A stretch of DNA of 64,000 bases from Cytophagales bacterium (lineage in GTDB: Bacteria > Bacteroidota > Bacteroidia > Cytophagales > UBA9547), in the NCBI GenBank assembly GCA_013297755.1, contig JAAFIH010000023.1:1-64000 (forward strand), written 5' to 3'. This document shows positions 2,182 to 52,421 of this stretch, piece by piece (position 1 is the first letter of the stretch; every line of letters starts with the position of its first letter). The translations under genes and the position numbers were made by a program. A model generated the notes under the pieces. It searched no databases and was not told where the DNA came from. It saw nothing but the letters and a program-made list of their open reading frames with translations.

Positions 2182-3780
2182 TTATATCACTTTATTAATC
2201 CTCTCAATTTCAAGAATTGATTGTAAAGAATTTGACACATACTGAATCTCTTCCAAATCTAAATCAGAGAAGAGACATATTTGTATTGTGTTGGAATTTA
2301 TCAAATAATCACTTTTATAATTTACGAAAATTTTTTTCTCTTCTAGAGTTTCTCCGATTATTAGAGAATCAATTGTGTCTGGAAGTTTTAATGTAATAAT
2401 TGCGGGGTGTAAATTTTTGGATGTGATTAAGTTCAAACCTAAAGCACTTATCCTCTTACGAAAAACCTCTCCTGCTACTCTAATTTTTTTATATCTGGAG
2501 TCGATATTTATAAGTTCTAAAGAAGCTCCTAAAGCATAGAGTGCGTTTGAATTAAGTGTAAATGGAATAGAGCCTTTTCTAATATAGTTTCGAATATCTA
2601 AATAAACAGGAATTTCATTTTTAATAGACTCAGACAACTCATTGAAAAACACCATTGACAAGCCAGAATAAGATCCAATTGCTTTTCCGCTACTTGCCGA
2701 AGCCATATATACCTTGCTTAAATCAATAGGAATAATTCCGAAAGTACTTATACAATCCACTATAACACGAATACCTTTTGAATGACATTCTTTTGTTATG
2801 TCATCGAGGTTGTTCAAAATACCAGTTGAAGTTTCACAATGAACAAAAAATATCCAATCTATTTTATTCTTTGTCAATATGGAATTAAGCTCATCACTAT
2901 TAAATTCTTCACCGCTGTTAATTTTATATTCAATAAAATCCAGTTTATGACATGAGGCTTGATGTGATATTCGATTGCCAAATTCTCCATTACTTAAAAC
3001 AAGTCCTTTTTCTGACATAGTTGATAGGTGAGCAAGCATAACTTCATTCGCTAATGTCCCTGTGCCTGTTAATAATTGTACATTTTTAGAGCAAACGAAT
3101 TGACAGAGATTGTTTGAAATCCTCGTGTAATTATATTTAAAGTTTGAAGACCTATGAGATACTGGTGAATTATTAAACTCTTCTTTAATGACAGATTTTA
3201 TATTAACAGGACCAGGTAATAAGTTTATGTTTTGATTTTGACTAGAAAGAGCACTCTGTTTATGTTTGGACTTAAAAAAATAATCAGGTGAAGAGTACAT
3301 TGGTTGAAATTTGACCTCGTCTCCAACCAACGGGCCAAATGGAACAAACCCAATATTCTTGTACAGTTTTTGTTGAGATAAAATGCCAGACATAACAGCG
3401 TAGTCATAGTCGCTTTTAATAAATTCAGAAAACGCTCTTTTGTACAAATAGTAAAAAGCTTGTGTCTTTCTATAATTTGGCTTTACCGCTAGTAGTCTTA
3501 TTTCACATAATGATTTATTAGGAGGTAAATAAGAGTCAATATTTTCCAGCTTTGAATCAAGTGAAAAAGGTCGTATCGCCCTCAGCGCAATCATCCCAAC
3601 AACTTCTCTGTCATTTAAGCAGATTACATATTTGTTTTCTGAATGAAATTTATCGATTAGCAATCCATTAGCAGTTGTAGCATGCTGTAATATCTCCTCA
3701 GAAAAGATTTGATGATTTAATCTACAAATCTCCTCCAACTCCCATAATTTATCTGCAACTTTAGTTGTTAATTTATTCAT
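2182..3780 (-). CDS. GNAT acetyltransferase fused to class V aminotransferase
   Basis: 532 aa with two domains. Residues 1-175 resemble a GNAT N-acyltransferase (CEIRLLAVKPNYRKTQAFYYL is the acetyl-CoA-loop strand, then QQKLYKNIGFVPFG). Residues 185-525 are a fold-type I, class V aminotransferase close to the phosphonate/alanine-glyoxylate group: LLPGPVNI start, LTGTGTLANE phosphate loop, Asp342 in VDCISTFG, and the probable PLP lysine Lys366 in ASSGKAIGS. The substrate is unknown; the fusion suggests an amine is made and then acylated, or the reverse (inference). It sits alone between repeat copies 1 and 2, like a cassette. Confidence 0.75.
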   Translation of the reverse strand: MNKLTTKVADKLWELEEICRLNHQIFSEEILQHATTANGLLIDKFHSENKYVICLNDREVVGMIALRAIRPFSLDSKLENIDSYLPPNKSLCEIRLLAVKPNYRKTQAFYYLYKRAFSEFIKSDYDYAVMSGILSQQKLYKNIGFVPFGPLVGDEVKFQPMYSSPDYFFKSKHKQSALSSQNQNINLLPGPVNIKSVIKEEFNNSPVSHRSSNFKYNYTRISNNLCQFVCSKNVQLLTGTGTLANEVMLAHLSTMSEKGLVLSNGEFGNRISHQASCHKLDFIEYKINSGEEFNSDELNSILTKNKIDWIFFVHCETSTGILNNLDDITKECHSKGIRVIVDCISTFGIIPIDLSKVYMASASSGKAIGSYSGLSMVFFNELSESIKNEIPVYLDIRNYIRKGSIPFTLNSNALYALGASLELINIDSRYKKIRVAGEVFRKRISALGLNLITSKNLHPAIITLKLPDTIDSLIIGETLEEKKIFVNYKSDYLINSNTIQICLFSDLDLEEIQYVSNSLQSILEIERINKVI

Positions 3781-4140: not shown

Positions 4141-4149
4141 TGCAGTAGT
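4135..4149 (+). repeat. Left 15-bp inverted repeat flanking the DUF6602 gene
   Basis: GTTGTGTGCAGTAGT here is the reverse complement, at 14 of 15 positions, of ACTACTGCATACAAC at 4997-5011. The two copies sit immediately outside the stop and about 18 bp before the start of the gene at 4149-4979, so the gene is precisely bracketed. Confidence 0.7.
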
Positions 4150-4979
4150 TAATTGTAAGCATTTGGTTCTGGATAATAAATATTTACGTTCATAAGAAAA
4201 TTAGATATTGATGTTAATAAATATATTACAGATTCGTGTTTTCCTAAATTTTGATGACAAATTTCAAAGTTTTTATTTAGAAATGACGGTGTGTACATTT
4301 TTTGATTCAACGGTATTTTCTCGTGAATATCAGTATATTGATTGTTATAGGTAATTATGCCATCGTTTAAACTTAAAATAATATTATGATATAAATATTT
4401 TGGTATTTGATTTAGTTCATAAACCTCTGTCATTTTTGTTTTTAGTTTTTCGAAATTAAAACCAGTTATTTTTTCGCATATTAAAAATGTAAAAATCGTA
4501 TCGTGTGGGTCTAATTCGGGAATATGTTTTTCTTTTTTAACATTATTAACACAAAATAAATTATTTATTTTTTTTAGCTTTTTTACATTTGATAATTTCA
4601 ACAAACTATTACATAAATCATTCATCGTCAATGTAGATTTCATTTCACCAACTGCTAAAACAGGTTCAACTGGAAAGAAACGATTATTATTACCTTCTTT
4701 AATTAATGGAGTATTGTTTAAATCATAAATTACGATATCACATTGAGTAGATATTTCATCATAAGAATTTATTAAAAATCCGGATGAAGTATTAAATTTT
4801 TGAGGAATAGAAAATTCTAATATTTCTTTACATATATTTTCTCTATAAATTCCAAATTCACCTGGATGAAGAAGTTTGTTTCTCTTTTCTAAATTTTCAA
4901 ATAGATTTTTGGTTGAATTAAAATCATAGATAAATTTATCAATTTTATTTATAAGTAATCTTTTATATATCTGATTCAT
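4149..4979 (-). CDS. DUF6602-like protein, putative PD-(D/E)xK nuclease
   Basis: 276 aa. The motif order fits DUF6602: HPGEFGIYRE near residue 38, then STQCDIVIYD with Asp81, then VEPVLAVGEMKSTL with Glu112 and Lys114. An Asp followed about 30 residues later by ExK on a predicted strand is the arrangement of PD-(D/E)xK nucleases, so DNA cleavage or a defence role is plausible but inferred. The C-terminal half (residues 130-276) has no motif I recognise. It is transcribed alone, bracketed by 15-bp inverted repeats, with an attC-like palindrome upstream and a terminator repeat downstream. Confidence 0.65.
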   Translation of the reverse strand: MNQIYKRLLINKIDKFIYDFNSTKNLFENLEKRNKLLHPGEFGIYRENICKEILEFSIPQKFNTSSGFLINSYDEISTQCDIVIYDLNNTPLIKEGNNNRFFPVEPVLAVGEMKSTLTMNDLCNSLLKLSNVKKLKKINNLFCVNNVKKEKHIPELDPHDTIFTFLICEKITGFNFEKLKTKMTEVYELNQIPKYLYHNIILSLNDGIITYNNQYTDIHEKIPLNQKMYTPSFLNKNFEICHQNLGKHESVIYLLTSISNFLMNVNIYYPEPNAYN

Positions 4980-39457: not shown

Positions 39458-40228
39458 ATGAAAGCAGAAATACAAAAAGAATTATCAAAATTAGAAATCC
39501 AAAAAGATATTAAAATATTGTTTGCAGTAGAGTGTGGCAGTAGAGCCTGGGGATTTGCCTCAGAAGATAGCGACTGGGATGTAAGATTTGTATATATCCA
39601 CAAAAAAGAATGGTATTTTAAAATTGATAATTTAGATGATGCTTTAGAAATTAAATTGCCAAACGATATAGATATGTCGGGATGGGAACTAAAAAAAACA
39701 TTGCGATTGTATAGAAAATGTAATCCTTCCTTGTTGGAATGGATCAAAAGTCCGCTTGTTTATGTAGATAATTATGGTTTTAAATCTAATTTAGATAAAT
39801 TGAGCAAAGAATTTTTTAATTCAAAATCATATTTGTATCATTATTTACACATGGCAGAGGGAAATTATTACGATTTTCTGGTAAAAGATATGGTAAAAAT
39901 AAAAAAATATTTTTATGTGCTAAGACCCATTTTGGTATGTGAATGGATTTTGAAATACAACACCATAGCTCCTGTAGAATTTAATCTTATCTTGGCTAGT
40001 TTAGAAATTGACAAATCAGTAAAAGCCGAAATTGACTTAATTATTGATAAAAAAATCAAAAATTATACACTAGGTTTAGAGCCTAGAAATGAAATTTTAA
40101 ATAATTATTTAATCAGTAAAATTAATTTTTTGAAAGAATATTTAAAAAATAAAGTTGAGCAAACGCCCAACAACACTCCAATTTTGGATAAACTTTTTGT
40201 GGAAACGATAGAAAAAGTTTGGCCTTGA
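39458..40228 (+). CDS. YcgL-like nucleotidyltransferase
   Basis: 256 aa. The Pol-beta-fold active site is FAVECGSRAWGFASEDSDWD with Asp38 and Asp41, then RFVYIHKKEWYF. The remainder is helical with LSKEFFNSKSYLYHYLHMAEG and LRPILVCEWIL, as in COG3541 predicted nucleotidyltransferases. Family members are often near mobile or defence genes; the target is unknown. It marks the left edge of the defence island. Confidence 0.82.
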   Translation: MKAEIQKELSKLEIQKDIKILFAVECGSRAWGFASEDSDWDVRFVYIHKKEWYFKIDNLDDALEIKLPNDIDMSGWELKKTLRLYRKCNPSLLEWIKSPLVYVDNYGFKSNLDKLSKEFFNSKSYLYHYLHMAEGNYYDFLVKDMVKIKKYFYVLRPILVCEWILKYNTIAPVEFNLILASLEIDKSVKAEIDLIIDKKIKNYTLGLEPRNEILNNYLISKINFLKEYLKNKVEQTPNNTPILDKLFVETIEKVWP

Positions 40229-40474: not shown

Positions 40475-40681
40475 ATGAAACTAATACTTGAAATTAAAGA
40501 TGATAAAGGTCCTTTTATAATGGATTTACTTGGTGGCTTTTCGTTTGTAAAAACTACACCAATTAGCAGTAATAAAGCTCAAGTTTTAAAAGATTTAAAA
40601 TTAGCTGTTAATAACTTAAATTCTGTTAAAAAAGGGAAAATTAAAGCTATTTCAGCAAAGGATTTGTATAATGAATTATAG
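40475..40681 (+). CDS. Antitoxin of a RelE-type pair
   Basis: 68 aa: MKLILEIKDDKGPFIMDLLG, a middle FVKTTPISSNKAQVLKDLK and the C-terminal AISAKDLYNEL. Its stop overlaps the toxin start by 11 bp, giving translational coupling. The antitoxin call rests on order, size and overlap; the C-terminal helix probably wraps the toxin. Small antitoxins of this type usually repress their own promoter. Confidence 0.7.
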   Translation: MKLILEIKDDKGPFIMDLLGGFSFVKTTPISSNKAQVLKDLKLAVNNLNSVKKGKIKAISAKDLYNEL

Positions 40682-40997
40682 TGTAGTGGCCATACCACCA
40701 TTTAATAAACAATTAAAAAAACTTTCTAAAAAATATCCTTCTTTAAAAGAAGAGTTTTTGAATTTAGTCTTAGAACTAGAATTAAACCCAATGAAAGGTA
40801 TTTTATTAGGTAATAATTGTTTTAAAATTAGAGTTGCTATTTCATCAAAAAATAAAGGAAAATCAGGAGGTGCTAGGGTAATTACAAATTTAAAAATTGA
40901 AGATAATGTTGTTTATTTATTGAGTATTTATGATAAATCAGAACAAGACTCAATAACTGACAAAGAATTAAGTGAACTTTTACAATTAATTCAATAA
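40671..40997 (+). CDS. RelE/ParE-family toxin
   Basis: 108 aa. VVAIPPFNKQLKKLSKKYPS is the usual N-terminal helix pair, then CFKIRVAISSKNKGKSGGAR and VVYLLSIYDKSEQDSITDKE, the pattern of the RelE/ParE fold subgroup with a KxGKSGG-like loop. RelE types cut ribosome-bound mRNA; ParE types poison gyrase; this cannot be decided here. Intact and coupled to its antitoxin. Confidence 0.85.
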   Translation: MNYSVVAIPPFNKQLKKLSKKYPSLKEEFLNLVLELELNPMKGILLGNNCFKIRVAISSKNKGKSGGARVITNLKIEDNVVYLLSIYDKSEQDSITDKELSELLQLIQ

Positions 40998-41229
40998 TTT
41001 AAAAACATTGAATATAAAAAAATCAAATTTATGTTTTTGAACTTCTAAAAATTTTAATTACCTTAAATGGCTTAATTTTGGAATGTTGGCGTTGTTTAGG
41101 TAATAAATTAAAATATAACTTTTAAAAATATTTTTGGGGTTTTTAAAAGATAAATCCATAAAAAACTAAATTTCAACCTAAAAATCTATTGAAATAGTTT
41201 TTATCTTGTATATAAAAATATGTCAAAAA

Positions 41230-41808
41230 ATGAATTATAAAAATTCAATATTTATAGATTCAAAAGTATTATTTATTCTATTTTTAGTTACTATTATTGT
41301 AGTTTCTATTACTGTATTTGTTACAGGAATAGATATTAAAAGAAGTATCTATTTTAATACATTTATTACTATTTCTATCTTATCTTTTTGTTTTTTTGCA
41401 TTCTTATTTATCAGTTTGTATTTCGGGATTAGAATAAAAGAAACAGTAGGGAATTTGTCAAAACAAGTACAAATTTTTAATGTTGGTTCTCCAACAATAG
41501 ATTTAGATTTCCCTGACTTTGCTGATGATTTTGAATCAGGAGTTGCTGCAATTATCCTTTGGTTAGGGGCAACAATTTCAATAATTTTACTATTTTTTTT
41601 CTTCGAAACTATACTTTGGGGTGGAATTGTTATAATAAGTGCAGGATTGTACTGGATTTTTTATAGAGCAACTAAATTTGTCTTCAGAAAAAATATAATG
41701 TGCAAAAACAATCTTTTAAAATCATTATCTCAAAGTTTTTTATATACTTTTATGTATTCCAGTTGGATTTATGGATGCGTATTTGTTGTGTATTATTTTA
41801 AAAATTAA
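41230..41808 (+). CDS. Four-helix membrane protein of the defence island
   Basis: 192 aa from the ATG at 41230 (a TTG frame starts at 41206). Hydrophobic segments at about 10-32, 40-65, 105-145 and 168-190 flank a soluble loop with GSPTIDLDFPDFADDFESG. No motif I recognise. Its position inside the island suggests a membrane effector, but that is only inference. It ends nine bases before the first ileS fragment. Confidence 0.6.
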   Translation: MNYKNSIFIDSKVLFILFLVTIIVVSITVFVTGIDIKRSIYFNTFITISILSFCFFAFLFISLYFGIRIKETVGNLSKQVQIFNVGSPTIDLDFPDFADDFESGVAAIILWLGATISIILLFFFFETILWGGIVIISAGLYWIFYRATKFVFRKNIMCKNNLLKSLSQSFLYTFMYSSWIYGCVFVVYYFKN

Positions 41809-41817
41809 TTTAAAAAA

Positions 41818-41891
41818 GTGAAATACCCATAATACAAAACCAGTCCTAATTATCAAGAAATTGCAGCCAAAATTTTGCAATATTGGAACGA
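41818..41891 (+). pseudogene. ileS 5'-end fragment 1
   Basis: From 41821 it matches codons 3-26 of the intact ileS (48924 onward) at 68 of 71 bases. It opens with GTG-AAA-TAC rather than ATG-AAC-AAA-TAC and has a stop at codon 5, so it codes for nothing. It immediately precedes a duplicated MNT stump and the Septu-like pair. Confidence 0.92.
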
Positions 41892-41892
41892 T

Positions 41893-42035
41893 ATATGACG
41901 TTAGAACCTTAAAATTAAATGAAGTAAATTTGTGAAATTTATAAAAACATGAAACCCAAAACAGAAAAAATGATTGCTAAAATAAGGGCATATTTTTCTG
42001 GTAAAATAATATTGTATGGATATATCAAGAATTAA
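41893..42035 (+). pseudogene. MNT antitoxin 5' stump with its promoter
   Basis: Bases 41893-41996 repeat 46121-46224 with about two mismatches, including the promoter TAAATTTG at 41925. The frame from ATG 41949 reads MKPKTEKMIAKIRAYFSGK and stops at 42035 after 28 residues, before the catalytic GSYSRG motif. It overlaps the ATPase start by 20 bp and may now supply the promoter for the Septu-like genes. Confidence 0.88.
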
Positions 42036-43323
42036 AATACAGAATTTTAAGAATTTTTCAGATGTAGAAGTTGAATTTGCACCAGGAGTAAATCTTTTTG
42101 TAGGTGGAAATGGATGCGGAAAAACTAGTATTTTAGAGGCTATTAATGTTGTACTGGGCAGTGTTTTGACTAATCTTAATCCCGAATTTGATAGAAAAAT
42201 ATATTTTAGTGAAATTAAAATTACAAATGGGATTAGAGAGGATGATGCAATTATCAAGTGTGAATTTAAAAATAAAAGTATAAATGTAGTTTTTATAAGA
42301 GAATTTAAACCAGAAACTGGAATTTTTAAAAATAATAAAGCTTACGGTAAGCCAATTTCAAATGAAAAAAATTTAATTGAAAACGATTACTTTGAAAATC
42401 TATTTGGTAATTTTAATAAAAGTGAAACAATAGTACCACTAATTGCCTACTATTCAACCCAACGACTTTTCAAAGACGATACATTATCTCAACGAAATAT
42501 TTATGATCCTGCAAATGGAAAATTAAATGGCTATATTGATTGCTTAAAAGAAAATTCTATTAAAAAATTACTAAACGATTGGCTTGGCAAGGCTGTAACC
42601 ACCAGAGCAACATTGGCAATAAAAGAAATTGATAAAATAAATGTTATACTTGAAAATGTAGAGGTAGCTATTCGCAAAACTTTAATTTTATTTTTGGATT
42701 TACCTTTAGATTTTAAACTAAAAATTTACTTAGATTCTGAAACAAACGAAGTTTTTGTCAATTATGATTCAGAGCATGATTTACCTCTAAATTATTATTC
42801 AGATGGATTAAGAAACCTTATTTATTTGGTTTTTGATATGGTTTGGCGTTCATCACAACTCAATCCTTGGCTAACTTTAGATGAAATTACCGAAAAAGTA
42901 AATGGAGTTGTAACTATTGATGAAATAGATTTGCACCTGCACCCTCGTTGGCAAACTAAGGTTATAAAAGTTTTACAAGATTTTTTTCCTAATGTACAAT
43001 TTTTTATCACTACACATAGCCCAACAGTGGTTGCAAATTTTGAAAATGGTACTTTGTATGTGATAAATGACAATAAAATTGAAAGATTTACTGGAAAATA
43101 TTTTGCAAGAGAAATTAATGATGTTTTAATAAATGTGTTGGGTGCATCAGATAGACATAAACCAACGCAAGAAAAAATAAATTTATTATTGAGATTAATT
43201 GACGATGATGATAAAGAAAAGTATGAGCCATTGCTACAGAAATTAACAAAAGATTTAGGTGCTGATGATTTTGAGTTAATGCAAGCAAATACACTAATAG
43301 AAATGAAAAACTGGAAAATATAA
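42016..43323 (+). CDS. Septu-like ATPase (PtuA type)
   Basis: 435 aa ABC/SMC-like ATPase. Walker A FVGGNGCGKTSI (residues 28-39) follows the opening IKIQNFKNFSDVEVEFAPG; the C-terminal half has LPLNYYSDGLRNLIYL (signature), VVTIDEIDLHLHPRWQTKV (Walker B and D loop) near 300, and FFITTHSPTVVANF (switch His). The next gene, directly adjacent with no gap, is an HNH nuclease: the PtuA-PtuB order of Septu systems and of retron-linked relatives. No reverse transcriptase is present. It probably senses phage and activates the nuclease. Confidence 0.82.
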   Translation: MDISRIKIQNFKNFSDVEVEFAPGVNLFVGGNGCGKTSILEAINVVLGSVLTNLNPEFDRKIYFSEIKITNGIREDDAIIKCEFKNKSINVVFIREFKPETGIFKNNKAYGKPISNEKNLIENDYFENLFGNFNKSETIVPLIAYYSTQRLFKDDTLSQRNIYDPANGKLNGYIDCLKENSIKKLLNDWLGKAVTTRATLAIKEIDKINVILENVEVAIRKTLILFLDLPLDFKLKIYLDSETNEVFVNYDSEHDLPLNYYSDGLRNLIYLVFDMVWRSSQLNPWLTLDEITEKVNGVVTIDEIDLHLHPRWQTKVIKVLQDFFPNVQFFITTHSPTVVANFENGTLYVINDNKIERFTGKYFAREINDVLINVLGASDRHKPTQEKINLLLRLIDDDDKEKYEPLLQKLTKDLGADDFELMQANTLIEMKNWKI

Positions 43324-43992
43324 ATGGAATTTATTTCTAAAAATATACTACCTGAAAATTGGAATAGTTGGTTTTCAGTAAATGGAGCTAGAACTTTTGA
43401 TTATTTACATGCTCAAAATAATAGAGCTAATCTTGAAGAGGTTAGGAATTATTTACTTAACGAACAAAATTATTTGTGTGCATATTGCCAAAAAAAAATT
43501 ACAACAAGTGATTCTTCGATAGAACATGTTATTGCAAAGTCTTTGAACATAGCACTTTCTACAGATTATTATAACTTAGTGGCTGTTTGTAAAAGTCAAA
43601 AAAATGACCCTATTACAAACAGATTGCATTGCGATAAAGAGAAAGAAAACAAAGAAATTACCCCATTTGTGTTTTTTAATAAATCTAAAGTTGAGATTAA
43701 TAAAAATAATTCTTATTTTGATGTAGAATCAAATGGATTAATCAAACCAAAAGACAATTTAACTACAGAATTATATAATCAAGTTAAATCATTCATAGAA
43801 ATACTAAATTTGAATCATTCTGCACTTGTAGAAAACAGGAAAAATAAATTATTTGCTTTAATTAAATCATTAAAATCAAATTCAGAAGTAGTTAAATGGG
43901 AAAATATTTTTAATTACATCTATCACAATCACTCATTAGAATACAAACAATTTTTATTGATATATTTTGCAAAACGTAAAGGATTAAATTAA
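43324..43992 (+). CDS. Septu-like HNH endonuclease (PtuB type)
   Basis: 222 aa. The zinc-HNH core can be read: Cys52 and Cys55 in YLCAYCQKKI, His68 in SIEHVIAKS, Asn84 and Cys89 in DYYNLVAVCKSQKND, and a following LHCDKEKENKE, as in TIGR02646-type HNH proteins. The ATG follows the ATPase stop without a gap, so the two are expressed together. Expected to cut nucleic acid when the ATPase is triggered. All motif residues are intact. Confidence 0.82.
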   Translation: MEFISKNILPENWNSWFSVNGARTFDYLHAQNNRANLEEVRNYLLNEQNYLCAYCQKKITTSDSSIEHVIAKSLNIALSTDYYNLVAVCKSQKNDPITNRLHCDKEKENKEITPFVFFNKSKVEINKNNSYFDVESNGLIKPKDNLTTELYNQVKSFIEILNLNHSALVENRKNKLFALIKSLKSNSEVVKWENIFNYIYHNHSLEYKQFLLIYFAKRKGLN

Positions 43993-44015
43993 TAAAATTT
44001 CAAAATACACAAAAA

Positions 44016-44047
44016 GTGAAATACCCAGAATACAAAACCAGTCCTAA
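44016..44047 (+). pseudogene. ileS 5'-end fragment 2
   Basis: After GTG, 29 bases from 44019 are identical to ileS codons 3-12, then the match stops abruptly. The upstream spacing and GTG start are like fragment 1 (both read AAAAAGTGAAATACCC). It is located 23 bp after the HNH gene and 100 bp before the OLD gene. Confidence 0.88.
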
Positions 44048-44149: not shown

Positions 44150-45961
44150 TTGCAGCATATATCGTATTTAAAAATACAAAATTTTAAGATTTTTGGAGAT
44201 GAAATTGTCATTCATTTCGATACTACAACTGTACTCGTTGGCCCAAACAATGCTGGTAAGACAACCATTATTCAGGCTTTGGCCATTTGGCAATTAGGAA
44301 TTAGAGCTTTTGTAGATTCTAAAACTGTTGTTGGAATTGATAAAAAATTAAAATTTAAAGGTAAATTAGATGACAAAACTGGTATTGGTATAAATAGACG
44401 AGATATTGAACAAGTTCCACATACTGACACCAGACAATTATTTAACAAAAATAAAATTAGAGCTGGCAAAGATAATATTTCAATAAAAATATCAGTAGGA
44501 ATTACTTTTAATAATGTTGTAGAAGAGTGTAGTGTTTTTTTTAAATATTTTAAGTCTGAAATCATTTATGCTTATTTAAGTACTAATTTATGCAATGAGA
44601 TAGAATTGTTAAAAAAATCTAGCGACTTGCAAATCAATTTATTGTATCCTATGTCTGGCTTAGAGCGAGAAGAAACTTTGTTGCAAGAGGGTGCTATACG
44701 TAAACAAATAGGAAGAGGTATAACAGCAGGGTTGCTCAGAAATGTATGCTATAATCTTTATATAAACCAACCCAAAATATGGGAAGAGTTGGTAAAAATG
44801 ATGGAAAAATTATTTTATATAAAATTGAATTCTCCTCAAAGGTTAGCCAACGATGACTTAATTTTAGACTATAATTACATAGATATTACTCAAAAATCAG
44901 AAAATCATCTTGATATATTACAAGCTGGTCGTGGGCAGCTACAAATTTTACTCATTCTGGCATTTGCTATGGCTCGAAAACAATCGGTGATTATGATTGA
45001 TGAGCCAGATGCACATCTTGAAGTGTTGAGACAAAGTCAAATCATGGAAGTTTTAAAATCTGTGTCTGACAAATTTCAATGCCAAATTATTGTAGCTACA
45101 CATTCTGAAATAGTAATGAATGAAGCTAATTCGCTCAACTTGATTCATCATGGAAAAAAAATAGAACTAGATGAGAATAAGAAAAAATCTATAAAAAGTA
45201 GCTTAGGGGAATTTGGAATTGAGCAATTTTACAAAGCCACTCTCACTAAATTTGTGCTATATTTAGAAGGTACAACCGACAAACAAAATCTAGTTGGATT
45301 GGCCAAATACCTTAAACACCCACTTGAAGAAATACTTAATGATAGGTTTTTTGTGTATTATACTCAAAGTCCTGATGCATTGAACAGTGAATTTGAAATA
45401 ACCCCAGGCTACTACCAAACGCATAAAAAACATTTTTCTGCATTAAAGCCATTAGTGGAAGACCTTAGAGGAATGGCTTTATTTGACAGTGATAATCAAA
45501 ACCGTGAAAATGAAGATATGGGAAATGGTTTGAAAATTCGATTTTGGAAAGAATATGAATTAGAAAATTATTTTATTACACCAGAAAGTGTTGAGAAATA
45601 TATTGAACATTATTACAAAGAAGATGGAAATGATGGCCTTTTTTTAGAAAATGATATGAACAATTTTAGATCTATTTTTGAATCAAACTTTTTGTTTCCT
45701 ATTTTTGATAAGAATGAAGTGTTATTAAATATTTATAGAAACAGTAACCCTATTGAAAAAAAAGCACTTTACAACAACTCTAGTAAAAGTAAAAAAGTTA
45801 GTTTATTACTAGAAATAGTTTTTCAAAACCTAGCCCAACAAAGTAATAGTAAAATTATTTTGAGAAAAAATGATTTTTATAAAATCATACCTTTTTGTAA
45901 TGAAGTAAAGGAAGAAGTCAAAGTAATGTTAGATGAAATATTTCATTCAATAGTTAATTAA
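44150..45961 (+). CDS. OLD-family ATPase-nuclease
   Basis: 603 aa. ATPase half: Walker A LVGPNNAGKTTI (residues 30-40), signature region LDILQAGRGQLQILLILA, Walker B IMIDEPDAHLEV near 282 and IIVATHSEIVMNEA. TOPRIM half: VLYLEGTTDKQNL near 370, MALFDSDNQN and WKEYELENYFITPES near 465, giving the acidic metal-binding set. No UvrD-like gajB partner follows, so this is a solitary (class 1-like) OLD rather than a Gabija pair. TTG start placed after a TAAATTTG promoter; no ATG lies upstream in frame. Confidence 0.85.
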   Translation: MQHISYLKIQNFKIFGDEIVIHFDTTTVLVGPNNAGKTTIIQALAIWQLGIRAFVDSKTVVGIDKKLKFKGKLDDKTGIGINRRDIEQVPHTDTRQLFNKNKIRAGKDNISIKISVGITFNNVVEECSVFFKYFKSEIIYAYLSTNLCNEIELLKKSSDLQINLLYPMSGLEREETLLQEGAIRKQIGRGITAGLLRNVCYNLYINQPKIWEELVKMMEKLFYIKLNSPQRLANDDLILDYNYIDITQKSENHLDILQAGRGQLQILLILAFAMARKQSVIMIDEPDAHLEVLRQSQIMEVLKSVSDKFQCQIIVATHSEIVMNEANSLNLIHHGKKIELDENKKKSIKSSLGEFGIEQFYKATLTKFVLYLEGTTDKQNLVGLAKYLKHPLEEILNDRFFVYYTQSPDALNSEFEITPGYYQTHKKHFSALKPLVEDLRGMALFDSDNQNRENEDMGNGLKIRFWKEYELENYFITPESVEKYIEHYYKEDGNDGLFLENDMNNFRSIFESNFLFPIFDKNEVLLNIYRNSNPIEKKALYNNSSKSKKVSLLLEIVFQNLAQQSNSKIILRKNDFYKIIPFCNEVKEEVKVMLDEIFHSIVN

Positions 45962-46042
45962 AAACTTAAACAAATCAAAATAATTAAAATCAAATTAAAC
46001 CATTGTCTATCTAAAATTAATTAAAATATCATATTAAATTTA

Positions 46043-46126
46043 ATGAACAAATACCCAGAATACAAAACCAGTCCTAATTATCCTGAAATAGCTTCAAATG
46101 TGTTGCAATATTTAAAAGAAATATGA
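46043..46126 (+). pseudogene. ileS 5'-end fragment 3
   Basis: Starts with the same ATG as intact ileS; the first 38 bases are identical, then similarity falls through 46112 (CTGAAATAGCTTCAAATG versus the intact version). The frame gives a 27-residue peptide opening MNKYPEYKTSPNYPEIA before a TGA. It precedes the MNT-HEPN-GmrSD block by 50 bp. Confidence 0.92.
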
Positions 46127-46152
46127 CGTTAGAACCTTAAAATTAAATGATG

Positions 46153-46168
46153 TAAATTTGTGAAATTT
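46153..46168 (+). promoter_or_regulatory. Promoter of the MNT gene, TAAATTTGTGAAATTT
   Basis: Contains TAAATTTG and lies 9-24 bp before the MNT ATG; the same 16 bases are found at 40265 and 41925. Confidence 0.55.
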
Positions 46169-46176
46169 ATAAAAAC

Positions 46177-46476
46177 ATGAAACCCAAAACAGAAAAAATG
46201 ATTGCTAAAATAAAGGCATATTTTGTTGATAAACCCATTGTGAGGGCTTATCTTTTTGGCTCTTATTCAAGAGGTGAAGAAAAAAAAGGTAGTGATGTTG
46301 ATATTTTGGTAGAACTAGAACCAAAGAATGATATTACACTTTTTACTTGGGTAGAAATGCAGGATGAAATTAAAAAAAAAATAAGACACAAAGTGGATAT
46401 GGTTGATAATTTGGGTCTATCTAAATTTGTAAGACCTTTTGTAGAAAAAGATAAAATATTGATATATGAAAAGTGA
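46177..46476 (+). CDS. MNT-domain nucleotidyltransferase antitoxin
   Basis: 99 aa minimal nucleotidyltransferase: YLFGSYSRGEEKKGSDVDIL with Asp40 and Asp42. Such proteins (MntA type) inactivate a partner HEPN RNase by adding AMP to it. The HEPN gene starts 10 bp inside the MNT 3' end but is broken, so the antitoxin has outlived its toxin. A duplicate stump of this gene lies at 41949. Confidence 0.86.
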   Translation: MKPKTEKMIAKIKAYFVDKPIVRAYLFGSYSRGEEKKGSDVDILVELEPKNDITLFTWVEMQDEIKKKIRHKVDMVDNLGLSKFVRPFVEKDKILIYEK

Positions 46477-46824
46477 AATAGGGGATTTTGCAAGGCTGAA
46501 TCATATACTAGATGCTATCCAATTAATTGAAATCTTTACCAAAGATATTAATCCAGAAAATTTGATGAAAACAAACTTGTTGCTTCTGGTTGTATGTATC
46601 AATTATTGATTATTGGAGAGGCCTGCAAACATATTTCTGAAGAAACTAAAACTAAAAATCCAAATGTCAAATGGCGTCAAGCCTATACATTAAGAAACAA
46701 ATTAGCATAAGAATATCATATTATAATTTTAGAAACAATTTACAAAACCATTAAATTAGAATTTCCAGTTTTCAAAAAACAAATAAATGATATATTAACT
46801 CAATTAGAAAATAAAAATAAATGA
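46466..46824 (+). pseudogene. HEPN (HepT-like) RNase toxin, disrupted
   Basis: The start MKSEIGDFARLNHILDAIQL is in frame with ATG 46466 but runs to a stop at 46609. The rest is in another frame after a shift at about 46550-46560: FDENKLVASGCMYQLLIIGE, ACKHISEETK, WRQAYTLRNKLA, then TAA at 46708, then EYHIIILETIYK to TGA at 46822. The stop replaces the His of the expected R-x4-H-x-Y active site (RNKLAHEY). Both lesions disable the toxin. Confidence 0.82.
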
Positions 46825-48887
46825 TAGCAACACAATCAAGAGTAGAAGACTTTTTATCATCTAATAAAACTCAATTTATAATTCCAGTTTACCAACGAAA
46901 TTATGACTGGACAGTTGGGCAATGCAAACAATTGCTAGATGACATTTTGGAAGTTGGTTACAGCAAAAAAATGAATGCTCATTTCATTGGGAGTATTGTT
47001 TATATACATGATGATGCCTATACAACATCAAGAATTAAAGAACTAACAATCATTGACGGACAACAAAGACTTACGACTTTAACTCTGATTTATTTAGCAC
47101 TTTATAGACTTGCAAAAGAAATTAAAGACGAAGGTTTGGTGAATGAGATTAACGAAACATATTTAATTAACAAGTTTGCTGCGGAAGAAGAAAAACTAAA
47201 ATTAAGACCAACAGAAAATAATGATAGAGCTTTAAAATTTCTATTAAGAAGTGACGAAACAGAAGAGTTTAATGATTTTTCAAAACTTATTGCAAATTTT
47301 GATTATTTCAAAGAAAGGATAAACAAGGATATTTATCCAATAGTTTTAAAGGGTTTGTCAAAATTAATGTTCGTAGAGGTTTCGCTCGAAAGAGGAAAAG
47401 ACGACCCACAAAGAATTTTTGAAAGCCTTAATTCAACTGGTTTAAAATTAGAGGAAGGCGATTTAATTCGTAATTATATTTTAATGGGCCTTAACCCCAA
47501 AGACCAGAATAAAATTTACCAGTCTTATTGGGAAATAATTGAAAAATTAGCAAAAGATGATATTTCAAACGAAAGCAAAGTATCTGATTTTATTCGAGAT
47601 TATTTAACGCTTGAAAACAGAAGTATTCCAAATAAAGGCAAAGTATATTTAGAATTTAAAGCCAAATACCCAACTTCAACGCTTGAAGAATTAGAAGCAA
47701 ATTTATTGGCTATTAAATCATTAGTAAAACATTACAACAAGCTAATAAATCCTAAAAACGAAACCGACAAAGATATTAGGTTGCAGTTAGAACATATCAA
47801 TAGACTTGAAATAAATGTGGTATATCCATTTCTTATGAAAGTTTACGATGATTTTTTCAATAAACTAATTGATAAAGATACTTTCATAAAAGTTTTAGAT
47901 TTAATTCAATCCTATTGTTGGAGGAGATTTATTGTTGGTTTGCCTACAAGCTCGCTAAACAAAATTTTTATGAGTTTTTACAAAGAAGTTGATAGTAGCA
48001 ATTATTTACATTCTGTGCAAAAAGCACTTTTGAAATTGCCAGGAACAAGTCGTTTCCCAAGAAACAAAGAACTTATTGACTCATTGAGAATAAAAGATGT
48101 TTACAACATCAAATCAAAAAACAGAACATACTTGTTAGAAAAGTTAGAGAACTTTGAAAACAGAGAACCTGTAATGATAGAAAGCAATACAGACATAACA
48201 ATTGAACATATTTTTCCTCAAAATCCAGACCCTAAATGGAAAATTGAATTAGGAACTGACGACTACAACTACATTAAAGAAAATTATCTAAACACCATTG
48301 GAAACTTAACACTTTCGGGAAATAATGGCAAACTTGGGAACAAACCATTTTTAGACAAAAGAGATTTAGCTGATGCTGGTTACAAAGACAGCAGACTTTG
48401 GTTAAACAAATATTTGACGATAATTGACAAATGGGACAAAGTCGAATTAGAAAGACGATTTGATTTTATTGCTGAAAGAGTTTTAAAAATATGGGACATA
48501 CCAAATATTACTATTGACGACAAGATAGATAGTAATGTCATAAATATATTTGATGCAGAAGACCCGACATTTAAGAAACTTGAATACGCTATATTTTTCG
48601 ACAATAAATTAGAAGTAAACCAAGTTGCTAAACTTTATATTGAGGTTTTTAAACAACTTTTTGATTTGCAACCTGAAACGTTTTTCACAACAGAGATAGG
48701 AGTAAAAATTGGTTTAACAAAAGCCCCCGAACAAACCAAAACTAGAAGTCCAACAATGTTGAATGACACATATTATATTGATGCAGGATATTCAAACAAA
48801 GACAAATTTGACAGAATAAAACTTGCTTTGACGACTTTTGGCTTTGAGGACGAATTAATGATAAAGTATGCAGAAGAAGATAATTAA
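46821..48887 (+). CDS. GmrSD-like DUF262/DUF1524 protein
   Basis: 688 aa in one chain. The N-terminal DUF262 (GmrS-like, ParB-fold nucleotidase) has FIIPVYQRNYDW at 19-30 and IIDGQQRLTTLTLI with the DGQQR motif at 79-83. DUF1524 (GmrD-like, HNH-type) has ITIEHIFPQNPDPKW near 460 and LNTIGNLTLSGNNGKLGNKP. A C-terminal segment of about 90 residues after 590 resembles a small extra binding domain (YIDAGYSNKDKFDRIKLAL). Type IV restriction of modified DNA is the known role of the family. Its ATG overlaps the HEPN stop by ATGA. Confidence 0.86.
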   Translation: MIATQSRVEDFLSSNKTQFIIPVYQRNYDWTVGQCKQLLDDILEVGYSKKMNAHFIGSIVYIHDDAYTTSRIKELTIIDGQQRLTTLTLIYLALYRLAKEIKDEGLVNEINETYLINKFAAEEEKLKLRPTENNDRALKFLLRSDETEEFNDFSKLIANFDYFKERINKDIYPIVLKGLSKLMFVEVSLERGKDDPQRIFESLNSTGLKLEEGDLIRNYILMGLNPKDQNKIYQSYWEIIEKLAKDDISNESKVSDFIRDYLTLENRSIPNKGKVYLEFKAKYPTSTLEELEANLLAIKSLVKHYNKLINPKNETDKDIRLQLEHINRLEINVVYPFLMKVYDDFFNKLIDKDTFIKVLDLIQSYCWRRFIVGLPTSSLNKIFMSFYKEVDSSNYLHSVQKALLKLPGTSRFPRNKELIDSLRIKDVYNIKSKNRTYLLEKLENFENREPVMIESNTDITIEHIFPQNPDPKWKIELGTDDYNYIKENYLNTIGNLTLSGNNGKLGNKPFLDKRDLADAGYKDSRLWLNKYLTIIDKWDKVELERRFDFIAERVLKIWDIPNITIDDKIDSNVINIFDAEDPTFKKLEYAIFFDNKLEVNQVAKLYIEVFKQLFDLQPETFFTTEIGVKIGLTKAPEQTKTRSPTMLNDTYYIDAGYSNKDKFDRIKLALTTFGFEDELMIKYAEEDN

Positions 48888-48917: not shown

Positions 48918-51900
48918 ATGAACAAATACCCAGAATACAAAACCAGTCCTAATTACCCAGAAATTGCAGCCAAAATTTTGCAATATTGGAACGAAAACCA
49001 AGTTTTTGAGCAATCTGTAAGCTCTCGTGAGGGCAAACCAACTTTTACTTTTTATGAAGGTCCACCATCGGCCAATGGCACTCCTGGCATACATCATGTG
49101 ATGGCTCGTACTATAAAAGATATTTTTTGTAGGTACAAAACGATGCAAGGTTTTCAGGTAAAACGTAAAGGCGGCTGGGATACCCACGGCCTGCCTGTAG
49201 AACTACAAGTTGAAAAAGAATTGGGCATCACCAAAGATGATATTGGTAAGAAAATATCCATTGCCGATTATAACCAAAAATGCAGAGAAACAGTCATGCG
49301 TTTCAAAGCAGAATGGGACGACATGACCCTCAAAATGGGCTATTGGGTTGATTTGGATAACCCATACATCACTTTTGAAAATTCTTACATAGAATCTTGT
49401 TGGTACATTCTCAAAAAGTTCTTTGATCATGGGTTTTTATATAAAGGATTTACTATACAACCTTACTCGCCAGCAGCTGGCACAGGGCTTAGCTCTCATG
49501 AATTGAACCAACCAGGGTGCTACAAAATGGTAAAAGATACTTCTATTGTGGCTCAATTTAAGGTCATTCGCAACTCGGTTTCTGAAAAATTATTTACTAA
49601 TCTTACCAATGATACCAAAGCACTGTCGCATCGTGAGTTGATAAAATCTATCAACGACCCTGATGTTACTGATGCTGTCAAAAACATAGATTGGTCTAAT
49701 GTGTATATATTGGCTTGGACTACCACACCCTGGACTTTGCCCTCGAATGCTGCATTGGCCGTTGGCGATAAAATTACATATATTAAAGTAAAAACTTACA
49801 ATCCATACACATTCAAACCTGTAGTAATTTTACTTGCCAAAGACTTATTGGCCAAATATTTTCATCCAAAATCGGCAGAAATTTCGCTCGAAAGTTATTT
49901 GCCAGGCGATAAAATTATTCCATACCAACTATTAGAAGAGTACAAAGGAAAAGATTTGTTGGGTATTTCTTATGAACAATTGATGCCGAGCCCCCTAACC
50001 CCCGAAGGGGGAAATTCCGACAACCCCACCAAAATTGGAGGCTTAAAAGCCGAATCAGAATGGAGAAACTTAGGTGCCTTTAAAGTAATATCTGGCGATT
50101 TTGTAAGTACCGAAGATGGCACAGGAGTTGTCCACATTGCCCCTACTTTTGGGGCTGACGATGCCAGAGTGGCCAAGCAGGCAGGTGTGCCAAGCATTAC
50201 TATTTTGGATGATACAGGAAAAGAAGCCCCTTTGGTAAATAAAAAAGGTCAATTTGTGGCTCAAATGGGTGAATATGCAGGTTTGTACGTAAAAAATTAT
50301 GACAAACAGGATGAAACAAATCCCATGTATAAGTCTACAGATGTGCTTATTTCAATCCAATTGAAGACAGAAAACAAAGCTTTTAAGGTAGAAAAATATG
50401 AACATAGTTATCCACATTGTTGGCGAACTGATATGCCAGTATTGTATTATCCAATGGAAAGTTGGTTTATCAAAACCACTGCCGTAAAAGATAAAATGGT
50501 GGCCATGAATAAAACCATTCACTGGAAACCAGAAAGTACAGGAACTGGTAGATTTGGTAATTGGCTCGAAAATTTAGTAGATTGGAATCTCTCTCGATCA
50601 AGATATTGGGGAACTCCTTTGCCCATTTGGATAAGCCAAGATGGTGGCGAAATGAAATGTATTGGTAGCATTGAAGAGCTTAAAAATGAAATAAAAAATG
50701 CTAATAAATTACTGAATTTAACTCAACCACTTGAGCTAAAAGACCTTCATCGTCCTTTTGTTGATGACATATTTTTGGCTGATAGTCGTGGGCAAAAAAT
50801 GGTTCGTCAACCAGATTTAATAGATGTGTGGTTTGATTCTGGGGCCATGCCTTATGCCCAATGGAACTATCCATTTTCTAAAAATACTTTGGATGGAGTA
50901 TATCCTGCTGATTTTATTTCTGAGGGTGTCGATCAAACGAGGGGATGGTTTTTTACTTTACACGCCATTGCTGTGATGTTGCACGAAATAGATCCAAAAA
51001 CATTTGGTGGAATAGCCTATAAAAATGTAGTTTCTACAGGACTTGTTTTGGATAAATTTGGCGAAAAAATGTCGAAAAGAAAAGGAAATGTGGTCAATCC
51101 ATTTGAAACAATCGAAAAATATGGCCCAGATGCTACACGTTGGTATTTGGTGGCTAACGCAAATCCTTGGGACAATCTCAAATTTGATTCAGAAGGAATC
51201 AGCGAAATTCAACGCAAATTCTTTGGTACATTACACAATACTTACAATTTTTATGCACTTTATGCAAATTTAGATAATTTCAGTCCTAGCTTCACAACTA
51301 AAAATAACTTACAAAGTCTTACTGAAGCCGACAAATGGATTTTATCAAAACTCAATTCGTTGATTGCAGATGTTACCCAATCTTACGATGACTACGAGCC
51401 AACAAAAGCAGCTCGAGCTATGACTGATTTTGTGTGCAACGACCTTAGCAATTGGTATGTGAGATTAAATAGAAAGCGTTTTTGGCTTACAAAACTAAAC
51501 GATGACAAAATTGCTGCTTACGCCACTCTTAGCACTTGTATAGAAACAGTGGCCAAACTTTCGGCTCCAATTGCACCATTTTATGCTGAAGAGATTTACA
51601 AAAATATTACCTTCTCTTCAGATTTATCTGTTCACTTGGCCGATTTTCCAGTGTCTAATCCTAATGTAATAGATTTAGCACTCGAATCAAGAATGGCTTT
51701 GGCCCAAACCATAACTTCTCTGGTTCATTCTATTAGAAAAAATAATGCTATAAGAGTAAGATTACCATTAAACAAAATTTTAATTCCTGTTTCAAATATT
51801 GACATTAAAAATCAAATTTTAGCTGTTCAGGATTTGATAAAAACAGAAGTAAATATCAAAAATATTGATTTTATAGAAGATACAACTGGTATTGTAACCA

Positions 51901-52421
51901 AAAAAGTAAAACCAAATTTTCAAACCTTAGGAAAAACTTATGGTAAGTTTTTGAAAGATATTGGTACAAAAATTGCTCAATTAAATCAATCTCAAATTGC
52001 AAGTATCGAAAACGGAACTCCTTTGGAGTTTATAGTTTCTGAATCTAAAATCATTATTTCAAAAGAAGATTTATTGATAACCACCGAAGATATACCTGGC
52101 TGGAAAGTGGCAAACGAAGGCGATTTGACAGTAGCTTTGGATGTTCATATAACAGATGAATTAAAAAAAGAAGGAATAGCTAGAGATTTTGTAAATCGAG
52201 TGCAAAATTATAGAAAAGATACTGGTTTTGATGTTGTTGATAAAATTAAAATTTTAGTCGAAAACAAAGACTCGCTCATTGATGCAGCACTAGGCGCTAA
52301 TATGGCTTATATCTGTGCCGAAACCCAAGCCCTAGATTTCAAACTTATTACTAAAATAGCAGAACCAACAATTTTTGAAATGGAAGATTTTGAGTTACTT
52401 GTTAGTATATCAAAAGTATAA
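48918..52421 (+). CDS. ileS: Isoleucyl-tRNA synthetase
   Basis: 1167 aa class I synthetase. The HIGH-type motif is SANGTPGIHHVMARTIKDIF (residues 51-70), KMSKRKGNVVNPFE lies near 716, and the CP1 editing domain shows WTTTPWTLPSNAALAVGD and DGTGVVHIAPTFGADD. In the editing domain, residues about 356-385 are an in-frame insertion whose start (PSPLTPEGGN) is the translation of a GC-rich palindromic repeat. The C-terminal anticodon-binding part is present. Three partial copies of its 5' end lie upstream; this is the only complete one. Confidence 0.96.
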   Translation: MNKYPEYKTSPNYPEIAAKILQYWNENQVFEQSVSSREGKPTFTFYEGPPSANGTPGIHHVMARTIKDIFCRYKTMQGFQVKRKGGWDTHGLPVELQVEKELGITKDDIGKKISIADYNQKCRETVMRFKAEWDDMTLKMGYWVDLDNPYITFENSYIESCWYILKKFFDHGFLYKGFTIQPYSPAAGTGLSSHELNQPGCYKMVKDTSIVAQFKVIRNSVSEKLFTNLTNDTKALSHRELIKSINDPDVTDAVKNIDWSNVYILAWTTTPWTLPSNAALAVGDKITYIKVKTYNPYTFKPVVILLAKDLLAKYFHPKSAEISLESYLPGDKIIPYQLLEEYKGKDLLGISYEQLMPSPLTPEGGNSDNPTKIGGLKAESEWRNLGAFKVISGDFVSTEDGTGVVHIAPTFGADDARVAKQAGVPSITILDDTGKEAPLVNKKGQFVAQMGEYAGLYVKNYDKQDETNPMYKSTDVLISIQLKTENKAFKVEKYEHSYPHCWRTDMPVLYYPMESWFIKTTAVKDKMVAMNKTIHWKPESTGTGRFGNWLENLVDWNLSRSRYWGTPLPIWISQDGGEMKCIGSIEELKNEIKNANKLLNLTQPLELKDLHRPFVDDIFLADSRGQKMVRQPDLIDVWFDSGAMPYAQWNYPFSKNTLDGVYPADFISEGVDQTRGWFFTLHAIAVMLHEIDPKTFGGIAYKNVVSTGLVLDKFGEKMSKRKGNVVNPFETIEKYGPDATRWYLVANANPWDNLKFDSEGISEIQRKFFGTLHNTYNFYALYANLDNFSPSFTTKNNLQSLTEADKWILSKLNSLIADVTQSYDDYEPTKAARAMTDFVCNDLSNWYVRLNRKRFWLTKLNDDKIAAYATLSTCIETVAKLSAPIAPFYAEEIYKNITFSSDLSVHLADFPVSNPNVIDLALESRMALAQTITSLVHSIRKNNAIRVRLPLNKILIPVSNIDIKNQILAVQDLIKTEVNIKNIDFIEDTTGIVTKKVKPNFQTLGKTYGKFLKDIGTKIAQLNQSQIASIENGTPLEFIVSESKIIISKEDLLITTEDIPGWKVANEGDLTVALDVHITDELKKEGIARDFVNRVQNYRKDTGFDVVDKIKILVENKDSLIDAALGANMAYICAETQALDFKLITKIAEPTIFEMEDFELLVSISKV
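49987..50016. repeat. GC-rich palindromic repeat inside ileS
   Basis: AGCCCCCTAACC then CCCGAAGGGGGAAATT, with the perfect stem CCCCC-GAA-GGGGG at 49999-50011. Its base composition is wholly unlike the surrounding AT-rich gene. It is read in frame as PSPLTPEGGN. Confidence 0.8.

Follow-up and report, generated by a model that had tools for sequence, protein, structure and literature searches.

The genes that precede ileS in this Cytophagales genome form an array of putative defence and toxin-antitoxin cassettes which was probably built up by successive insertions at the starts of ileS and of an MNT nucleotidyltransferase gene, each insertion having duplicated the piece of target that it struck. 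The array is found in a 64,000-nt stretch of DNA that was analysed at its full length (hereafter the window), taken from a genome of 4.24 Mb in 70 contigs whose closest named relatives come from lake metagenomes and bear the label Cytophagales or Bacteroidetes. It starts with a membrane protein gene, followed by a stump of ileS (S1), a stump of the MNT gene and the PtuA- and PtuB-like genes, then by a second ileS stump (S2) and an OLD/NsnB-like gene, and then by a third ileS stump (S3), the MNT gene, a broken HEPN gene and a GmrSD/DUF262 gene, before reaching ileS itself (Table 1). All array genes have the same orientation as ileS.

Table 1. Features of the array upstream of ileS, with positions in the window
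Feature	Position	Strand	Evidence or remark
Membrane protein gene	41206..41808	+	G002 homologue, 68% aa identity; junction alignment
Stump S1, first ~77 nt of ileS, GTG-start allele	41812..41889	+	96% match with the real gene over 71 nt
Copy A of repeat	41893..41996	+	104 bp; differs from 46121-46224 at 2 positions
TAAATTTG, weak candidate for the -7 element of a Bacteroidota promoter	41925..41932	+	
MNT 5' stump ORF, 28 codons, first 16 MNT-derived	41949..42035	+	
PtuA-like ATPase of the Septu-like pair	42016..43323	+	PADLOC PtuA 2e-88; PDB PtuA 8ee4 3e-34
PtuB-like HNH nuclease	43324..43992	+	PADLOC PtuB 1e-33; Pfam HNH
Stump S2, first ~31 nt of ileS, GTG-start allele	44011..44047	+	
OLD/NsnB-like ATPase gene	44150..45961	+	PADLOC NsnB 2e-22; GajA/Old weaker
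Stump S3, first 77 nt of ileS, ATGAAC-start allele	46042..46119	+	
Copy B of repeat	46121..46224	+	upstream of and inside the intact MNT gene
Intact MNT nucleotidyltransferase (antitoxin-like), 99 aa	46177..46476	+	Pfam NTP_transf_2 4e-13; PADLOC PDC-S09
HEPN partner, broken	46466..46824 (about)	+	three-frame translation
GmrSD/DUF262 gene	46821..48887	+	Pfam GmrSD_N 4e-37, GmrSD_C 7e-23
Real ileS, intact, 1167 aa, target of insertions	48918..52421	+	

Based on their matches, the adjacent PtuA ATPase and PtuB HNH genes are predicted to form a Septu-like pair. The window does not hold an MNT-HEPN toxin-antitoxin pair with both members intact: the HEPN gene is frameshifted and the codon for the catalytic His of its RNKLxH motif is a stop, and the MNT gene therefore stands without a working partner. 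No transposase, integrase or recombinase family was detected above the curated cut-off among the scanned array proteins (Pfam, PADLOC), and the Phage_integrase (PF00589) matches in the genome are on other contigs only. An RlaP-family nucleotidyltransferase gene (39458-40228; Pfam 2e-76) marks the upstream edge of the array, and a RelB/RelE-like pair (40475-40997), also upstream, is homologous to RelBE pairs that are bracketed by target duplications elsewhere. Far from the array, direct repeats (2027-2156/4008-4137/5190-5305 and 3922-4161/5104-5361) surround the genes at 2182-3780 and 4149-4979; these repeats are possibly further target duplications.

The preliminary description of this DNA had drawn attention to a block of about 104 bp, repeated with two mismatches and composed of the end of an ileS fragment, a promoter motif and the opening 16 codons of MNT. 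All of these elements are present in the repeat, and the two copies are identical except at 41923 (A/T) and 41986 (G/A). They form the core of a longer repeat (41821-42005 and 46049-46233, 185 bp at 90%), for which an E-value of 1e-66 within the whole genome excludes chance. The ileS fragment is real, but belongs to a larger set, being one of three copies of the ileS start that lie upstream of the real gene. As had been stated, the PtuA ATG (42016) falls inside the span of the MNT stump ORF, which it overlaps by 20 nt, but it is read in a different frame (+1). The TAAATTTG motif is likewise found in the block, yet a TTG is missing 17-24 nt upstream of it and the motif is frequent, with 87 occurrences of TAnnTTTG on the + strand of the window, so that it argues only weakly for a promoter at 41925. 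Capture of the MNT promoter by the Septu-like genes, as had been proposed, is possible, with a half-matching motif in its favour.

The start of ileS (its first ~30-77 nt) thus recurs three times among the defence genes, making four copies in the window with one cassette between each neighbouring pair. S1 is mismatched to the real ileS at 4 positions, while S3 is identical to it over 38 nt and then carries 12 mismatches in the next 40 nt. S1 and S3 meet the MNT sequence at the same ileS codon, and their ileS parts differ by 18%. From the mosaic structure of S3, and from its start allele, which differs from that of S1 and S2, it follows that the copies must have exchanged sequence at least once, whatever the order of insertions.

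Comparison within the genus shows where genes entered. In the same-genus genome G002, the membrane protein gene lies directly before an intact, GTG-started ileS, and in the window the same gene lies before the GTG-started S1. The alignment of the two runs from the membrane gene into ileS up to codon ~26, where it is lost as the window goes over to the MNT region. The genes were therefore inserted inside the start of ileS, and this start was duplicated. G002 hence provides an empty site for the ileS start at the junction of membrane gene and ileS. The membrane gene of G002 is itself bracketed by copies of the ileS start, each of 48 bp and differing by 1 mismatch. The genes taken as targets are whole in the window (ileS, 1167 aa; MNT, 99 aa), and the repeats, of 29-185 bp in the window and 48 bp in G002, are much longer than the target duplications made by transposons. 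As a separate observation, the ileS of G002 (L192:10871-15013) contains a long insert that keeps the reading frame, has LTPxPSPxER-type repeats on its flanks and resembles a DUF559-type endonuclease domain, and the window ileS has a short similar insert (SPLTPEGG).

A second genome of the genus, G001, carries before its ileS an array of MNT, PtuAB, HEPN and RelBE genes, a truncated GmrSD gene and two MNT 5' stumps; no ileS stump was found at its ileS locus. The 84-nt starts of its MNT copies are 89-98% alike. Among the genus genomes, identity is 77-82% for ileS (cleanly aligning parts), 73-77% for RelBE, 68% for the membrane gene, 59% for PtuA and 51% for PtuB. The cassettes before ileS thus differ among the three genomes of the genus while being related, with stumps separating them, and the turnover of cassettes that had been proposed for this site is well supported.

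The form of this turnover seems to be another one than first suggested. The Septu-like genes had been thought to replace the body of an MNT cassette, but the MNT gene is still complete downstream (46177-46476), and a block ending in the middle of a gene is the form that a target duplication takes, as at many RelBE loci in the order (see below). The best reading of the MNT 5' stump is that it represents the second half of a target duplication; the MNT gene would then never have been replaced. Replacement would start from two tandem MNT cassettes, the body of the first being swapped for the Septu-like genes, which would then use its promoter. G001 lends this some plausibility, with its several tandem MNT genes having near-identical 5' ends, its two MNT stumps and its PtuAB genes directly behind a complete MNT gene. 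Yet it requires a tandem duplication as well as a replacement where one insertion suffices, and leaves the recurrence of the same form at unrelated target genes unexplained; we therefore regard it as improbable. A search of 391 genomes did not find the block upstream of PtuA-like genes in genomes lacking MNT-HEPN genes: it occurs twice in its own genome only, its MNT part is also present in G001, and the remaining matches are short (1e-4 to 1e-5). One genome (G004) has a PtuAB pair with neither MNT nor the block. IMG/VR, plasmids and phages, searched for a carrier, gave no match to the block or to the ileS start. Counting against the insertion reading, no empty site was found for the MNT-PtuAB step, and the pattern is absent from PtuAB loci elsewhere (1/23, that one being G001).

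Beyond the genus, bracketing repeats of the ileS start or leader were found in the window, in G002 and in Fibrella forsythiae only, among 121 ileS loci searched (G002 being included twice, and other repeat matches being judged tandem or unrelated). The idea of ileS as a general hotspot was consequently rejected. In F. forsythiae, a RelBE pair is bracketed by 54-bp copies of the ileS leader. Both flanks match in its relative G195, where the matches overlap by 53 bp; this relative therefore has a single copy of the repeat and no RelBE, and represents a second empty site. These data also bear on site-specific integration, in which the ileS start would serve as attachment site for cassettes that exist as small circles, and the stumps would correspond to attL and attR. 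The repeated use of the ileS start, the common orientation of all cassettes and the mosaic that S3 forms with the real ileS, which resembles a crossover, would agree with such a process, and a fixed insertion site would also give the ileS-MNT junction that S1 and S3 share. However, the repeats vary in length (29 to 185 bp) and so do the junctions (ileS codons ~10 and ~26, MNT codon 16), other genes are used at other loci, no integrase was recognised in the array, no fixed core site was found and 117/121 ileS loci (G002 counted twice) have no such stump, which makes site-specific integration very unlikely.

The same arrangement recurs around toxin-antitoxin genes across the order. Using RelE homologues as anchors, direct repeats that reach at least 45 bits and span the RelBE pair were found at 17 of 64 usable loci, versus 3 of 404 random anchors (Fisher p 2e-13), the latter being drawn from ileS neighbourhoods and not from other accessory regions. 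The repeats measure 46-450 bp. By inspection, about ten of the 17 correspond to gene ends or borders, and the target gene is intact where it falls within the stretch read; these ten clearer cases, a count itself picked by inspection, give p 2e-7 alone. The repeated pieces, with target-gene names mostly read off translations, are the 3' ends of a transketolase gene (L280; 108 bp at 97%), of an OmpA-like gene (L287), of a ClpB-like gene (L196) and of other neighbouring genes (L264, L284), the 5' end of an M20 peptidase gene (L208), terminators or leaders (L219, L223, L262) and MNT copies in G001 (L201). In the search for empty sites, the flank of the transketolase case matched dispersed sequence and gave no clear one. 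The repeats at L198, L199, L203, L209 and L213 are dispersed palindromes or ambiguous, and are not claimed as target duplications; at L198:345-3030 (genome G132), four copies of a ~157-nt palindromic repeat, a dispersed element, lie between small genes including RelBE. At MNT loci the pattern was seen in 2 of 28. Elsewhere, at L244:1091-1859, an MNT-HEPN pair lies behind a rimO-like gene, 68 bp of whose 3' end are repeated on the far side.

The molecular mechanism and any order of the insertions are inferred here. Each insertion would duplicate 29-185 bp of the target, the duplicated piece holding the start of the gene that is struck, so that downstream this gene remains complete, while upstream a stump of it is left. 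The MNT-HEPN-GmrSD unit would have entered ileS at about codon 26, and PtuAB, or PtuAB together with the OLD gene, would have entered the MNT gene at codon 16 with a duplication of about 104-185 bp. The foreign DNA was most likely joined in the course of repair or transformation, either by template switching or by homologous recombination on one side; selection would retain only those insertions that leave the target gene intact, and the stumps might then supply homology for later exchange between copies. Such exchange could in principle account for more of the array, if homologous recombination among existing stumps shuttled whole cassettes between relatives and the first insertions arose otherwise. 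The mosaic S3, the two ileS start alleles in the array and the near-identical MNT 5' ends in G001 all point to it, but it would explain neither how the first duplication arose nor isolated insertions like that of the RelBE pair in Fibrella. We consider it doubtful as a substitute for insertion with target duplication, in addition to which recombination among stumps may well act.

These observations touch on the question of how small defence genes without mobility genes get into chromosomes. We tentatively suggest, as a possibility that we hold less probable than its opposite, that duplication of gene ends is a general route by which toxin-antitoxin and defence cassettes without a recombinase of their own spread in Cytophagales, perhaps through a dedicated, unrecognised function of the host or the element, the starts of core genes such as ileS serving as repeated landing places. 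If long target duplication were a common route, stumps of core genes could be used to locate and date acquisitions, and empty sites in relatives would allow tests of the mechanism. A gene stump should in any case not be read straight off as the remnant of a replaced cassette.

Several known systems resemble parts of this array. The integrative and conjugative element SXT inserts at the 5' end of prfC, to which it gives a new 5' end, and it brings along an integrase together with a fixed att core. The insertions in the window similarly strike the 5' end of a housekeeping gene, but unlike for SXT neither an integrase nor a fixed att core was found at the array. Integron cassette arrays consist of short co-oriented genes with repeats between them, a description that also suits the short genes of the window, which run in one direction with repeats between. 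Here, however, the repeats are gene starts and not attC, no IntI is present in the window and the targets vary; integron attC sites were set aside, the repeats being coding starts of ileS. Most likely, the array fits insertion with long target duplication, a phenomenon already known from the restriction-modification genes of Helicobacter pylori (Nobusato et al., 2000, Gene 259:99-108; as reported in PMC1643837, PMC4978471 and PMC2749054). As far as these reports describe it, both cases have selfish or defence genes lying between long direct repeats of the target, and in both the repeats far exceed the target duplications of transposons. Compared with the restriction-modification genes of those reports, the genes found here are of toxin-antitoxin, Septu-like, OLD-like and GmrSD types and belong to Cytophagales, and the cassettes of the window differ from the H. 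pylori case, as so reported, in being stacked several deep at one essential gene.
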